The notes below the pieces were generated by a model. It saw only the letters and a program-made list of their open reading frames with translations. It was not told the origin of the DNA and ran no database searches. Position numbers and translations under genes: made by a program. From positions 62,001-126,000 of the forward strand of contig NZ_RYYS01000043.1 in assembly GCF_004138215.1 (NCBI RefSeq): a stretch of 64,000 bases of DNA, read 5' to 3'. Origin of the DNA: Anaerophilus nitritigenes. GTDB lineage: Bacteria; Bacillota; Clostridia; Peptostreptococcales; Thermotaleaceae. Shown piece after piece: positions 5,780 to 41,898 of this stretch. Position 1 is the first letter of the stretch. Each line of letters starts with the position of its first letter.

Positions 5780-6484
5780 TTATTGTTGTGGTTTCATAAA
5801 CATTTGTGTCCAATAAGCTGTTCCTTTGACATCTTTTGTGTATCCTACACCAATTTCTGTATAATTTACATTTAAAATATTTTTACGATGTCCAGTTGAA
5901 TTCATCCATGCCCTTACTACTTCTTCAGGAGTTCTTTGACCCTTTGCTATGTTTTCTCCTGCATAAGAATATTTTATACCAAAATTTTTCATCATATCAA
6001 ATGGTGAGCCATAAGTTGGTGAAGTATGAGAGAAATAACCTTGATCTTTCATATCATCAGATTTAAATCTAGCTACTCTTGAAAGTTCTTCATTTTCTTT
6101 TAATGGCTTAAGTCCATTTTTCTCTCTTTCAATATTTACAAGTCTTACTACTTCTTTCTCATATGCACGTTGCTGTGTATCTGTTTGAGATGTTTGAGTA
6201 GATGAGTTGTTTTGAGTCGTTTGTGTTGTATTAGATGGGGTTTGAACATTTTGTTGTTCATCAGCTGGCTTACTTTGATTTGTCTCTTGTTTTGGTTGAG
6301 ATGTTACTACCGTATTATTATTGGTTTTATACCAATTAAATTTAGGTTGATATCTTTTCACATATCTCCATGTTGTATTCCTTGATGTAACAGTATAATA
6401 CTGTGTAGCAGCTTCAGCACCTAATGGCATCGCTGTTGCCGATAATATAAGGGCTAGAGCTGCACTGATTAATACTTTCTTCAT
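5780..6484 (-). CDS. Secreted CAP/SCP-domain protein (YkwD-like)
   Basis: The 234-residue protein starts with a Sec signal peptide (Lys-Lys, hydrophobic core, 'GAEA' at about residue 25). A Gln/Thr/Asn-rich low-complexity linker follows to about residue 105, then a CAP domain (about 108-232) containing 'NIEREKNGLKPL', 'YFSHTSPTYGSPF', 'AGENIA' and 'GHRKNIL'. The two His and two Glu positions of the CAP cavity are kept. CAP proteins of this type are exported or wall-associated, often spore- or envelope-related in Firmicutes. Their biochemical role is mostly unknown. It is a close relative of the CAP lipoprotein at 25479. A GGAGGAG site precedes the ATG. Confidence 0.88.
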   Translation of the reverse strand: MKKVLISAALALILSATAMPLGAEAATQYYTVTSRNTTWRYVKRYQPKFNWYKTNNNTVVTSQPKQETNQSKPADEQQNVQTPSNTTQTTQNNSSTQTSQTDTQQRAYEKEVVRLVNIEREKNGLKPLKENEELSRVARFKSDDMKDQGYFSHTSPTYGSPFDMMKNFGIKYSYAGENIAKGQRTPEEVVRAWMNSTGHRKNILNVNYTEIGVGYTKDVKGTAYWTQMFMKPQQ

Positions 6485-6670: not shown

Positions 6671-6794
6671 AGGATCGGATGAAAGTAGTGGAAGATCATC
6701 GACCGCTACTGGACGAACCTCTGGAGAGACTCTTATGAGCACCGAAGGGGAAAACCATATAATGGTGAATCTCTCAGGTAAAAGGACAGAGGAT
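6671..6794 (+). ncRNA. Glycine riboswitch, one intact aptamer with a degenerate 5' partner
   Basis: The intact aptamer (about 6718-6792) has the conserved blocks 'CTGGAGAGAC', 'GAGCACCGAAGGGG', 'GGTGAATCTCTCAGG' and 'AAAAGGACAGAGG', with P1 formed by CCTCTG (6718) and CAGAGG (6787). Upstream, where a tandem riboswitch would carry its first aptamer, only a short hairpin remains (AGTAGTGG at 6684 / CCGCTACT at 6703). It is flanked by 'GGATGAAA' and 'GGACGAAC', as expected for the leader-linker kink-turn of a 'ghost' aptamer. The unit it controls is the ACT protein and UPF0210 protein. Confidence 0.9.
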
Positions 6795-6854
6795 TTTTAT
6801 AAATGAAACTGACTTTCTTAAAATGTTACCTTTTCATTTACAAAAACTCTTCAG

Positions 6855-25478: not shown

Positions 25479-26276
25479 ATGAAAAAAATATTGATCTTTT
25501 TCATTCTTTCAATTTTTGTATTAACAAGCTGTACAACTCCACAACAAAAGCCTAAACCAAAGCCCTTAACTTCATCAATTTTCGAAAAAGGACAAGTCAA
25601 ACAAATTGAAGTTACAAAAGACAATGCAACTTGTAGGTCAGGACAAGACAAAAACTCTCCTATTGTAAAAAATCTCTCAAAGGGAGAAATTTATGATGTC
25701 ATAGGAGAAATGGGAAATTCTTATATTATTGAAACAGAAGATAAAAAAGTAGGAACTGTATCTTCAGACGACGCAAAACCTCATCTACAGCCTACAAGAG
25801 CTACACAAGAACAAACACCCACAAGAACTACACAAGAACAAACACCCACAAGAGCTACACAAGAACAAACACCTACAGACACGGTAGGACAACTTACTTC
25901 CAATGAAGATGAAATACTTCGTCTTTTAAATGGAGAACGGACAAAACAAGGTCTAAAACCACTTCAATTAGACTTGCAGGTTACCAAAGTAGCTCGACTA
26001 AAATCACAGGATATGATTGACAATAATTACTTTAGCCATAACTCTCCAACCTATGGTAGTCCTTTTGATATGTTAAAACAATTTGGTGTTGAATATGCAT
26101 ATGCTGGTGAAAATATCGCTGGAAATCCATCTGTTCAAGATGCTCATACTGCATGGATGAATTCTAAAGGACATAGAGAAAATATTTTAAATCCTAATTT
26201 TACTCATGTAGGTATTGGTGTAAAGAATGGTGGTAAGTACGGCAAAATGTATACACAAATGTTTATAGGGAAATAA
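25479..26276 (+). CDS. CAP-domain lipoprotein
   Basis: The 265-residue protein has a lipoprotein signal with lipobox 'LTSC' (Cys18). A small SH3-like region follows (about 38-100, 'VTKDNATCRSGQDKNSPIV'), then three copies of the nonapeptide TRATQEQTP, and a CAP domain (about 140-265) with 'YFSHNSPTYGSPFDML', 'AGENIA' and 'GHRENIL'. It is anchored to the outer face of the membrane with the CAP domain held off by the repeats. It resembles the secreted CAP protein at 5780 closely across the CAP domain. GAGGTG precedes the ATG. Its 3' end converges with the orphan cobalamin riboswitch transcript. Confidence 0.9.
   Translation: MKKILIFFILSIFVLTSCTTPQQKPKPKPLTSSIFEKGQVKQIEVTKDNATCRSGQDKNSPIVKNLSKGEIYDVIGEMGNSYIIETEDKKVGTVSSDDAKPHLQPTRATQEQTPTRTTQEQTPTRATQEQTPTDTVGQLTSNEDEILRLLNGERTKQGLKPLQLDLQVTKVARLKSQDMIDNNYFSHNSPTYGSPFDMLKQFGVEYAYAGENIAGNPSVQDAHTAWMNSKGHRENILNPNFTHVGIGVKNGGKYGKMYTQMFIGK
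25794..25874 (+). repeat. Three tandem 27-base repeats inside the CAP lipoprotein gene
   Basis: Units at 25794, 25821 and 25848 each encode TRATQEQTP with one variant residue (Thr for Ala) in the middle copy. They form the linker between the SH3-like and CAP domains, a typical site for copy-number change. Confidence 0.85.
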
Positions 26277-26277
26277 A

Positions 26278-26309
26278 AAAAAATCTCTCCATACATGAGA
26301 GATTTAAAA
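26278..26309 (-). terminator. Downstream terminator facing the cobalamin riboswitch
   Basis: On the minus strand AAATCTCTC / GAGAGATTT with a 7-base loop is followed by a run of nine T just before the CAP lipoprotein stop codon. It would stop any read-through from the riboswitch. On the plus strand it has no T run. Confidence 0.8.
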
Positions 26310-26349
26310 AGAGGAAAAATTTCTGAAAAACTAGACCATTTTTCATAAT

Positions 26350-26381
26350 ATTAAATAAAACCCTGCTTTTAGGCAGGGTTT
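26350..26381 (-). terminator. Cobalamin riboswitch-proximal terminator
   Basis: AAACCCTGC / GCAGGGTTT with a 6-base loop lies about 20 bases after the riboswitch. On the minus strand the stem is followed by TATTTAATATT, a weak to moderate T tract. It is probably the expression-platform terminator. Confidence 0.65.
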
Positions 26382-26400
26382 CACTTACGTATAGTTATAA

Positions 26401-26597
26401 AACATTACGCATTACCTCCCCACCGAAGGTAGCAATATTGACAATAGGCAGGTCTCCTGACTCATGAATCATTCTACTCCCTTTACCTTCCCGTTTTCAC
26501 AGTGGTTTCAAAGGTTTCGTCATCATTTACAGTAGCGGGGGCTGTGTCGGTGTTTCACCGAACTTCCCTATTAAACTTAAGTAGTACCTAATGTACA
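26401..26597 (-). ncRNA. Cobalamin riboswitch with no downstream gene
   Basis: Read on the minus strand the element shows 'GGTGAAACACC', 'ACAGCCCCCGCTACTGT', 'GGGAAGG' and the B12 box 'AGTCAGGAGACCTGCC' in the canonical order. A candidate P13 hairpin (CCTTC / GGAGG with a GGTGG loop) and a P1 of ACATTA / TAATGT follow. The next gene on this strand is splB, more than 3 kb away past oppositely oriented genes, so nothing is evidently controlled. Only very short reading frames follow the GGGGAGG purine run (5-6 codons). Confidence 0.92.
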
Positions 26598-26616
26598 AAA
26601 TTTTCAATTTGTTATT

Positions 26617-26645
26617 ATTATACTATAATTTCTAATACTTGTCAA
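26617..26645 (-). promoter_or_regulatory. Consensus sigma-A promoter of the orphan riboswitch
   Basis: TTGACA (26640-26645) and TATAAT (26617-26622) match the consensus exactly with a 17-base spacer. The expected start is about 10 bases before the aptamer. It lies directly after the topB stop codon, so the RNA is made independently of topB. Confidence 0.85.
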
Positions 26646-26663: not shown

Positions 26664-28964
26664 TCATTTCTCTATTCTTGTTACGTTTTTAAATTGTAAA
26701 TCTCCACTTTTATCTTCTTTAAATTGAAGAGTTGCTCTACATTTTTCTTTTGTTTGAGGTAAAACCATATGAAAATTATGGATTTGTCCGTCTTTAATAA
26801 TAGTTTCTATCATTTCGCTTGTTACCTTTTGACCATATAGTTCTAAACTATTTTTCCATACAGTAAATTTACAATTTTTCTTCCAATAGCTACAATAAAA
26901 AGCTTTTCTATTTTCTAAAATATCTCCTTCTCTACAAGCTATACATTTTCCTAATGAATTTTTATTTTTTCTGTTTTCTTTATACTTTGTCGTTGGATAT
27001 GAATTCATAGAATTTCTTCCCTTACTAAATTCTAATACTTTTTGTGTATTTTTCATAATATAAGCTTCTAATTTTTTCATATACTCATCAGACTTTATCT
27101 CTCCGTCTGCAATCATTCCAAGCCCCTTTTCCCAACTTGCAGTAAGTTCTGGTTTCAACAAAGAAGGAATAGACTTGCAAACTACATCATAGATCATCTC
27201 TCCCATTTGAGTAGGCGTAAGGATTTGTGTTTTTTTATTTAATTTTACATATTGAATTTTTTGTAATTTATTTAATATTTCAGCCCTTGTAGCACTCGTT
27301 CCTATTCCACTTCCTTTGATTTGTTCTCTTAATTCATCATCTTCAATAAGTTTTCCTGCATTCTCCATAGCCAAAATCATAGAACCAGAATTATATCTTT
27401 TGGGTGGAGTTGTTTCAGATTCCTTTATAGATATATCTTTAAATTTTATCTTTTGTCCTTTTTTTAACTTTTCTAGAGTTTCTATTTGATCTGCTTTTGA
27501 TCCTTCACTTTTTTTATTTTCTCCTAATACTTCTAAATATCCTTCTTGTATACACACTTTAGAAGTAGTAAAAAAACGTTCTTCCTTTATTCGAGTCGTA
27601 ATGGCTAATTGACTAAATACAGCCTGTGGATAAAATATTGCTAAAAATCTTCTTACTACAATCAAAAATATTTCTTTTTCTGTTTCTGCTAATTTATTAA
27701 AATTTCCTATTCCCTGTCCTGTTGGAATAATAGCATAGTGATCTGTAATAGCTTTATCATTTACATATTTTGTTTTTTCTAGTCCTTTATATAACTCTTC
27801 ACCTACTATTTTTTGTACAAATTCGTTAATTTTTTCATCTTTTTTATCTAAATTACATGATTTTTTGATATTTAAAAGACCTTTTATATTTTTATGGATT
27901 TCTTTTGCTACAGCCTTTGACAAAACTCTAGCATCAGTCCTAGGATAAGTAAGCATTTTTCTTTCATATAGCTTTTGAACAACTTTAAGTGTTTCATCAG
28001 GACTTAATTTAAATTTCTTAGAACATTCATTTTGTAGTTCTGCTAAATTGTAAAGAAGAGGAGGATTTTTCTTTTCTTTTTTTCTTTTCACATCTTCGAT
28101 GATCGCCATACATTCTTCATTATCTTTTTTTAGTTCTTGTATAAACTCTTTTGCATCCTCTTTTTCTTTAAATCCAATATCCTTAAATAATAAATTAGAC
28201 ATATAATATTTCGATCCTTCTAAAGACTTCCATTCTCCTTCATATTCTAATATTTCTTCAAATAAAAAGCTTGATAAAATCTTATAATAAGGAGTTTTTA
28301 CAAAATCACGAATTTCTCTCTCCCTTTGAACAATCATTCCAAGTACACACGTCATAACTCTTCCTACAGCAATTACTACATATTTTTTCCCTAATTCCTT
28401 GCTCAATTGATTTCCATAGCAAAGAGTAAGTAACCTTGAAAAATTAATTCCCATCAAATAATCTTCTTTAGCTCTTAGATAAGCTGCGTCTGATAAATGG
28501 TCATATTCAGCTAATGGTTTTGCATTTTTTACACCTTTTTTTATTTCTTCCTCTGTCTGAGAATCAATCCAAACTCTTTTTTTTATTTTATTTACTTTTA
28601 CCATATCATCTACTAATCTATATATATATTCTCCCTCACGCCCTGAATCCGTACACACATATATGGTAGATATATCTTTTCTCTTCATTTGAGTCTTTAC
28701 AATATTAAATTGTTTTTGAACATTTTTTATGATTTCATATTTATATTCTTTTGGTAAAAATGGAAGATCTTCCAAATTCCATTTTTTATATTTCGGATCA
28801 TACTTTTCTGGATAACTCATATTTACCAAATGTCCTACACACCAAGAAATAACTGCTTCATTTGACTCAATATAACCATCTTTTTTACTTCCTTTAATAT
28901 TTAAAACTTTTGCAAATTCTAATGCCACACTAGGTTTTTCTGTAATATATAAAGCCTTGTTCAT
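26664..28964 (-). CDS. topB: DNA topoisomerase III (TopB-type)
   Basis: The 766-residue type IA topoisomerase opens with a TOPRIM domain ('ALYITEKPSVALEFAKVL', later 'VCTDSGREGEYIYR'). The catalytic Tyr lies in 'KMLTYPRTDARVL' (about residue 342). A 'GIGTSATRAEI' block follows, and the C-terminal part has a Cys-containing zinc-ribbon-like segment ('GKCIACREGDILE...FYCSYWKKNC'). It relaxes and decatenates DNA, passing single strands. The start at 28964 has GGAG 8 bases upstream. Longer reading adds eight codons without a site. Its full length and extra zinc segment suggest a chromosomal gene. Mobile elements carry similar TopB copies, but no other mobile genes are present. Confidence 0.92.
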   Translation of the reverse strand: MNKALYITEKPSVALEFAKVLNIKGSKKDGYIESNEAVISWCVGHLVNMSYPEKYDPKYKKWNLEDLPFLPKEYKYEIIKNVQKQFNIVKTQMKRKDISTIYVCTDSGREGEYIYRLVDDMVKVNKIKKRVWIDSQTEEEIKKGVKNAKPLAEYDHLSDAAYLRAKEDYLMGINFSRLLTLCYGNQLSKELGKKYVVIAVGRVMTCVLGMIVQREREIRDFVKTPYYKILSSFLFEEILEYEGEWKSLEGSKYYMSNLLFKDIGFKEKEDAKEFIQELKKDNEECMAIIEDVKRKKEKKNPPLLYNLAELQNECSKKFKLSPDETLKVVQKLYERKMLTYPRTDARVLSKAVAKEIHKNIKGLLNIKKSCNLDKKDEKINEFVQKIVGEELYKGLEKTKYVNDKAITDHYAIIPTGQGIGNFNKLAETEKEIFLIVVRRFLAIFYPQAVFSQLAITTRIKEERFFTTSKVCIQEGYLEVLGENKKSEGSKADQIETLEKLKKGQKIKFKDISIKESETTPPKRYNSGSMILAMENAGKLIEDDELREQIKGSGIGTSATRAEILNKLQKIQYVKLNKKTQILTPTQMGEMIYDVVCKSIPSLLKPELTASWEKGLGMIADGEIKSDEYMKKLEAYIMKNTQKVLEFSKGRNSMNSYPTTKYKENRKNKNSLGKCIACREGDILENRKAFYCSYWKKNCKFTVWKNSLELYGQKVTSEMIETIIKDGQIHNFHMVLPQTKEKCRATLQFKEDKSGDLQFKNVTRIEK

Positions 28965-29020
28965 GTAAACACTCCACTTTCTATGCAATTAATAACTCAT
29001 TCATCTATATGTTACAATAA

Positions 29021-41795: not shown

Positions 41796-41898
41796 TTCTT
41801 ATCTGTCAGGTAATACCTGATGGAATTAGCACCACAGAATTAAATTCTAGGTTGCTGGGTTTCATAGGGCCAGTCCCTCCACCTCTCTGGATAAGATA
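41796..41898 (-). ncRNA. SAM-I riboswitch (S-box)
   Basis: On the minus strand the conserved blocks appear in order: 'CTTATCCAGAGAGGTGGAGG', 'GACTGGCCCTATGAAACCC', 'GCAACC', 'GGTGCTAATTCC' and a closing 'GATAAGA'. P1 is formed by ATCTTAT and ATAAGAA. When SAM is bound the downstream terminator should form and transporter expression fall. Confidence 0.97.

Follow-up and report, generated by a model that had tools for sequence, protein, structure and literature searches.

A conserved gene-less cobalamin riboswitch RNA with a probable antisense payload against AdoCbl-dependent mutase mRNAs

Introduction

Riboswitches are usually read as cis-acting leaders, and those without a gene behind them are easily dismissed as relics. 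Small RNAs, for their part, can ration what a cell lacks: RyhB, a metal-sparing small RNA (sRNA) under the control of a protein repressor, responds to a scarcity signal by switching off dispensable users of the cofactor in short supply.

Three further described systems offer close comparisons. EutX of Enterococcus faecalis and Rli55 of Listeria are free-standing RNAs with their own constitutive promoter and an AdoCbl aptamer; they act in trans and, as outlined in PMC5821096, AdoCbl yields a short form that lacks the effector. That effector is a dual hairpin that binds EutV and so sequesters a protein. The eut-linked switches are placed in class IIb, and cobalamin switches are OFF switches in most of the cases described, according to the account in PMC11477304. 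In AspocR of Listeria, a 1,400-nt cis-encoded antisense RNA of pocR, a B12 aptamer terminates a longer regulatory RNA, for which action in trans, probably by base pairing, has been reported (as outlined in PMC8079631). The same source describes the SAM riboswitches SreA and SreB of Listeria, from which a riboswitch-derived RNA pairs in trans with an mRNA and hinders its translation; there the active form is the terminated, ligand-bound one, which still serves the downstream operon.

Here we analyse a cobalamin riboswitch in a 64,000-nt stretch of the Anaerophilus nitritigenes genome, hereafter the window. Its parts follow the order known from EutX and Rli55, but in place of a protein-sequestering hairpin pair it carries complementarity to mutase mRNAs. 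As in AspocR, a B12 aptamer would stop an otherwise longer regulatory RNA; here, however, that RNA measures about 330 nt, lacks a cis target and has several predicted distant targets. In contrast to SreA and SreB, the ligand-free read-through form would be the active one. The sparing logic would be that of RyhB, except that sensing would fall to an aptamer within the RNA itself. EutX/Rli55 and AspocR are nearest in gating and SreA nearest in trans pairing, and the proposed output, multi-target pairing with mutase mRNAs, differs from that of both EutX/Rli55 and AspocR. In the accounts cited, none of these systems is a B12-gated RNA that pairs with more than one mRNA of B12-dependent enzymes. 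Among the papers listed by searches of the open-licence part of PMC, none has a title or abstract beginning that describes a B12-gated base-pairing sRNA acting on mutase mRNAs.

Results

Anatomy of the locus

The element lies on the minus strand and consists of a promoter, the aptamer, a terminator (T1), an effector stretch and a second terminator (T2) (Table 1). An earlier note made from the letters of the window had described a complete cobalamin aptamer with its B12 box, a perfect promoter, two terminators and no gene behind them, and all of these features were borne out. The distance from the start of the aptamer is 250 nt to the end of T1 and 332 nt to T2, and the gap between the terminators is about 50 nt. 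The next gene is on the opposite strand and encodes a CAP-domain lipoprotein; read-through, as the same note had proposed, would end at its 3' end, the end of T2 coinciding with the CAP stop codon, tail to tail. An overlap with the opposite gene of the AspocR type is therefore not seen. The sole same-strand neighbour is a topoisomerase III-like gene located upstream, whose PRK07726 and topB scores are both slightly below the curated cut-offs. A hairpin that follows the B12 box in similar sequence in all members described below probably has a role in gating. When the tail was compared with known sRNA families of Rfam, matches below the gathering scores only were obtained. The genome encodes ten cobalamin riboswitches in all.

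Table 1 Features of the riboswitch RNA and its neighbours (window positions)
Feature	Position	Strand	Basis or remark
Promoter TTGACA-17-TATAAT	26617..26645	-	12/12 consensus bases
Promoter boxes	TTGACA 26640-26645; spacer 17 nt; TATAAT 26617-26622	-	promoter scan
Cobalamin riboswitch aptamer	26430..26606 (26606->26430)	-	RF00174, 113.6 bits (gathering score 31.5); model positions 1-189, full length
B12 box GAGACCTGCC, within aptamer	26447-26456	-	position in sequence
Conserved post-aptamer hairpin CTACCTTCGGTGGGGAGG, expression-platform part	26415..26432	-	similar sequence after B12 box, 12 members
Terminator T1, presumed B12-controlled stop	26357..26380	-	9-bp stem and covariation
Effector hairpin, block 1; loop GGUCUA (26332-26337)	26324..26345	-	fold of post-T1 stretch
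Seed AAATTTTTCCTC, block 2; complement of GAGGAAAAATTT	26311..26322	-	member comparison
Terminator T2, end of long RNA	26275..26305	-	hairpin, then U
YkwD-type CAP-domain lipoprotein gene, convergent	25479..26276	+	TIGR02909; neighbour, outside the mechanism
Topoisomerase III-like gene, upstream; stop at 26664	26664..28988	-	best NCBIfam matches PRK07726, topB; neighbour only

Conservation across the family

To see whether the same gene-less element and its flanking genes recur in relatives, as the earlier note had recommended, 135 of the 136 RF00174 sites in 16 genomes of the family were surveyed, one site of G004 being left out. Most of these sites precede a same-strand gene. The unit of aptamer, T1, effector and T2 is found as a single copy per genome in 12 of the 16 genomes, representing eight genera, the member in G007 having been recognised by eye in the post-aptamer sequence and not by pattern search. 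Three different neighbourhoods were encountered. Eight members face a convergent CAP gene tail to tail (G000, the genome of the window, its sister species G001, and G006, G008, G012, G013, G014 and G015), two face an HD-domain gene in the same manner (G007, G011), and in two a same-strand TetR gene follows T2 (G003, G010). A gene for B12 transport or synthesis lies directly downstream in none of the 12, and the unit is kept, which speaks against the suggestion that it is the relic of a deleted transporter gene. The unit was not found in G009 and G005, each 98% complete, nor in G002 (68%) and G004 (76%).

A covariance model of the T1-T2 region, built from 11 of the 12 members, recovered each of the 12 once, including the left-out member of G013 at the expected place (E 5.5e-4). 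When the model was run against 297 genomes of the order, with 11 candidates per genome scored under strict filters, the only other matches were in G079 and G005 (E about 0.009), which we take as chance; this search yielded no convincing unit outside the family, which falls short of proving absence.

In the sister species, the unit is 92% identical over 429 of the 431 bases searched. From the post-aptamer sequence through T2, 149 of 154 alignment columns are identical between the two species, and within columns 396-502, comprising the post-aptamer tail, T1 and the inter-terminator stretch, identity extends to 106 of 107. The corresponding values are 168 of 180 for the aptamer, 108 of 128 for the topB end and 78 of 94 for the CAP end, so the tail is more conserved than the ends of both flanking genes. 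The 9-bp stem of T1 is paired in 96.0% of the cells of an 11-sequence comparison, with three pairs changed on both sides, and its covariation score was reached by none of 500 shuffles. T2 varies in hairpin sequence between genera and keeps its hairpin and U run. In 11 of the 12 members, a sequence that matches the promoter consensus at 10-12 of 12 positions lies 9-19 nt ahead of the aptamer, the lower scores being best-of-scan values that may be partly due to chance; no good promoter was seen at the usual position in G007. Our results establish that this family possesses a conserved, B12-aptamer-led RNA element without a gene.

In Anaerosolibacter, about 5.5 kb separate a CAP homologue from the sRNA (L044; G010:C1:85621-85951), a spacing that suggests that the CAP neighbourhood is ancestral.

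Effector blocks and RNA folds

Between T1 and T2 there is a conserved payload that the earlier note had not seen, composed of two blocks, GGUCUAG and the pyrimidine seed UUUUUCCUC. The blocks were read from unaligned sequences, since several motif columns are misaligned in the alignments. Block 1 varies to GUCUAG in G013, to GGUCUA in G003 and, in G011 and G007, to GGGUCUC with CUAG or UAG standing apart. The seed has the form UUUCCUY in G003, G007, G010 and G011, and G013 carries it twice (AAGTTTTTCCTC in two copies).

In the fold of the released part of the window's RNA, GGUCUA occupies the loop of a hairpin and the seed remains unpaired. When the whole long RNA is folded, several members have the seed largely or partly in base pairs (mean unpaired 0.06-0.68), which counts against easy action. 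The folds in which the conserved blocks are displayed mostly differ from genus to genus. When the folds were inspected by eye, an antiterminator was not seen, and every minimum-energy fold read retains T1. The arrangement of aptamer, hairpin and T1 also precedes a small conserved protein at six other loci of the family, and for this reason T1 looks like an ordinary expression platform in which an RNA has replaced the gene. A hexaloop with A1 and G4 is a feature of ANTAR-type sites; no such loop occurs in the 12 effectors or in the post-aptamer stretch of the window. The comparison with Rli55 and EutX drawn in the earlier note suits the proposed gating and does not extend to these hexaloops.

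Predicted targets: glmS, mcmB and kamD

A search of the RNA outside the aptamer for pairing motifs, also proposed beforehand, showed that the two effector blocks are together complementary to the translation starts (Shine-Dalgarno sequence and early codons) of AdoCbl-dependent mutase mRNAs. The predicted targets are the large (mcmA) and small (mcmB) subunits of methylmalonyl-CoA mutase and the alpha subunit of lysine 5,6-aminomutase (kamD), joined in the genus of the window by methylaspartate mutase S (glmS).

Six sites in the genome of the window match the seed complement GAGGAAAAATTT exactly, one being the sRNA itself and another extending from the Shine-Dalgarno sequence to the start codon of glmS (TIGR01501), which pairs with the sRNA over about 30 nt. 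With one mismatch allowed, 146 matches were obtained in the same genome against 138 for the reversed control, hence no enrichment. The gene glmE has the seed and pairs weakly (-16.2), and CCUC is complementary to any Shine-Dalgarno sequence.

The mcmB start AAGGAGGAAAAATTTATGGATAGACC is complementary to both blocks. As a control, 300 dinucleotide-shuffled effectors were generated for each of 12 genomes, and the mcmB pairing was reached by none of the 300 in G000, G001 and G014, by 7 in G008, by 8 each in G003 and G010, and by 9 in G015. In the other five genomes the pairing falls within the shuffles (G012 21, G006 48, G007 105, G013 108 and G011 200 of 300). Among starts of the form GAGGAAAAAT-N1-4-ATG, the best hybrid is formed by glmS in G000 (10 starts), by glmS and then mcmB in G001 (15 starts), and by mcmB in G008 (of 5), G014 (of 13) and G015 (8 of 15 examined); in G006, mcmB is third of 10. 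Starts with GAGGAAAAAT and no TAGACC block are also found at aroC in G001, G008, G006 and G015 (L394, L404, L409, L437), which we take to encode chorismate synthase.

A two-block pattern (GAGGAAA, a gap and TAGACC) searched for in the 16 family genomes gave 103 matches, as compared with 119 for its reversed version as a control, and thus no overall enrichment. In 31 of the 103, the first block is followed by an ATG at a distance that equals or approaches Shine-Dalgarno spacing, and 19 of these start-like matches are B12 enzymes: 12 mcmB, 6 kamD (identified by NF052384, checked in G001 and G000) and one B12-binding radical SAM gene. The other 12 comprise one VOC-family gene, two non-starts (four-residue frames in G007 and G011) and nine others. 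An identification of the VOC-family gene of G015 (L432), which has both blocks, as methylmalonyl-CoA epimerase was not supported by NCBIfam. The radical SAM gene (TIGR03960; G000:C40:83446, L482) has both blocks at its start and is a possible further target.

An order-wide search for GGTCTAN{3,33}TTTTCCTC remained at chance level, with matches in 162 of 297 genomes and similar reversed controls. G002 and G005, two genomes in which the sRNA was not found, have the same mcmB start; since the codons of mcmB and kamD are moreover constrained by their proteins, it must have been the sRNA that evolved to fit. G009, where the sRNA was likewise not found, yielded no separate mcmB-like gene, which is in keeping with the proposed pairing.

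Predicted targets: mcmA

In a less selected comparison, the hybrid energy of each genome's own effector was ranked over 28 to 95 available gene starts per genome, 689 in all, a non-random set drawn from riboswitch loci, seed-pattern matches and the window. This ranking brought up mcmA without its having been sought: it ranked 2nd of 97 in G000, 1st of 84 in G001, 1st of 55 in G006, 1st of 44 in G008, 1st of 70 in G011 and 3rd of 79 in G014, these being the six of the 12 sRNA genomes whose sequences examined include its start. The gene was identified by TIGR00641 in G000 and elsewhere by sequence and by an mcmB located 37-95 nt behind it. The effector block CUAGUUUUU pairs with the mcmA codons ...AAAAACUAG, and the seed pairs with the Shine-Dalgarno sequence.

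Shuffled effectors reached the mcmA energy in 1, 1, 0, 0, 8 and 13 of 500 cases in G000, G001, G006, G008, G011 and G014, respectively, and placed mcmA at least as high as the true effector did in 8, 5, 0, 2, 0 and 20 of 60. Part of the effect is thus due to sticky mcmA starts. An own-pair effect was absent, the own mcmA being the best of the six for its sRNA in G011 only.

Discussion

A B12-controlled small RNA, one of the possibilities raised in the earlier note, is the reading that conservation, anatomy and predicted targets favour. From the architecture and the complementarity, which are both present in the DNA, we infer transcription, ligand gating at T1, duplex formation and repression as follows. 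The RNA would be transcribed constitutively and act in trans as a B12-gated antisense sRNA. With AdoCbl bound, transcription would stop at T1 and only the switch would be made; with the cofactor scarce, the polymerase would pass T1 and continue to T2, so that the effector is added. GGUCUAG and the seed would then pair, in order, with the early codons and the Shine-Dalgarno sequence of the mcmA, mcmB, kamD and, in the genus of the window, glmS mRNAs. Ribosomes would be blocked, the apo-enzymes would not be made and the remaining B12 would be spared. Silencing in the absence of B12 is logical for a cofactor user, because apo-mutases are useless without it. Judged from sequence, we consider such silencing of AdoCbl-dependent mutases for B12 sparing to be likely, and the case for mutase mRNAs as targets is good but computational. 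Against the mechanism stand the five mcmB pairings that fall within the shuffles, the failure to see an antiterminator in the folds, the poor seed accessibility predicted in some genomes, and G005, which has mcmB with the same start and no convincing sRNA. On balance, we also lean, with somewhat less assurance, towards the more general idea of a single RNA as sensor and regulator, in which an aptamer gates a multi-target antisense payload against enzymes that use the sensed cofactor.

The reading that takes the RNA as a genuine B12-gated sRNA with other true targets, and the mutase pairing mainly as the chance fit of a U/C-rich seed to A/G-rich starts, draws on the sticky mcmA starts, the non-significant mcmB pairings, the aroC starts, which have no B12 link, and the fact that the comparison covered a fraction of each genome's gene starts. 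We consider it unlikely, given that the match of GGUCUAG to early codons of mcmA, mcmB and kamD has the expected order and that B12 enzymes account for most of the start-like two-block matches. An RNA that, like EutX and Rli55, binds and ties up an RNA-binding protein, for instance an ANTAR antiterminator, and does not pair with mRNA would share the order of constitutive promoter, B12 aptamer, stop and effector outlined in PMC5821096, and the conserved GGUCUA loop could be a protein site. However, none of the effectors has the A1/G4 hexaloop, the blocks are largely held in different folds in different genera, and the complementarity to mutase starts would be left unexplained, all of which makes sequestration distinctly improbable.

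The absence of a following gene could also point to the degenerate leader of a B12 gene since lost or to the leader of a small peptide, and a six-codon frame with a Shine-Dalgarno sequence (MFYNYT) is common to both species of the window's genus. Among the peptides compared, however, none is common beyond the genus, and single copies conserved across eight genera argue against the relic of a lost gene; the probability of a leader of either kind is very small. Least credible of all is a device that controls the convergent CAP gene by antisense action or transcription interference. It would suit the tail-to-tail arrangement of eight members, but the RNA extends no further than the CAP stop codon, and the four members that face an HD-domain gene or precede a TetR gene carry the same effector; the antisense role considered in the earlier note can thus hardly be the conserved one if CAP is meant.

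If the mutase-silencing mechanism is true, the RNA would be an RNA-only counterpart of iron sparing by RyhB, with a B12-sparing regulon under one RNA, and it would show how cells ration a costly cofactor. A gene-less switch in control of an antisense payload that acts on users of its own ligand would unite two main kinds of bacterial RNA control. It would also suggest a rule for other gene-less riboswitches, namely to check the inter-terminator stretch for complementarity to the mRNAs of ligand-using enzymes.

Other observations

Within the window, a SAM riboswitch (94.1 bits) is located at 41796-41897 on the minus strand and a glycine riboswitch (68.1 bits) at 6711-6799 on the plus strand. 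The closest named relatives of the CAP protein are from Marinisporobacter, Thermotalea, Anaerosolibacter and Geosporobacter. In G011, the sRNA riboswitch (L128:5465-5674, minus strand) stands back to back with a divergent cobalamin riboswitch (5780-5958, plus strand) that leads a lipoprotein gene, and the sRNA of G013 has a Clostridiales-2 sRNA (RF02937) about 2.5 kb away, at L127:7514-7597 on the minus strand. The small protein that follows an aptamer and T1 has about 45-50 residues and the C-terminal sequence FVSYGHFPEPP; it is encoded within 600 nt of the aptamer at 6 of the 135 riboswitch loci, L132, L133, L134, L136, L137 and L138, in G009, G008, G015, G014, G012 and G006, respectively.
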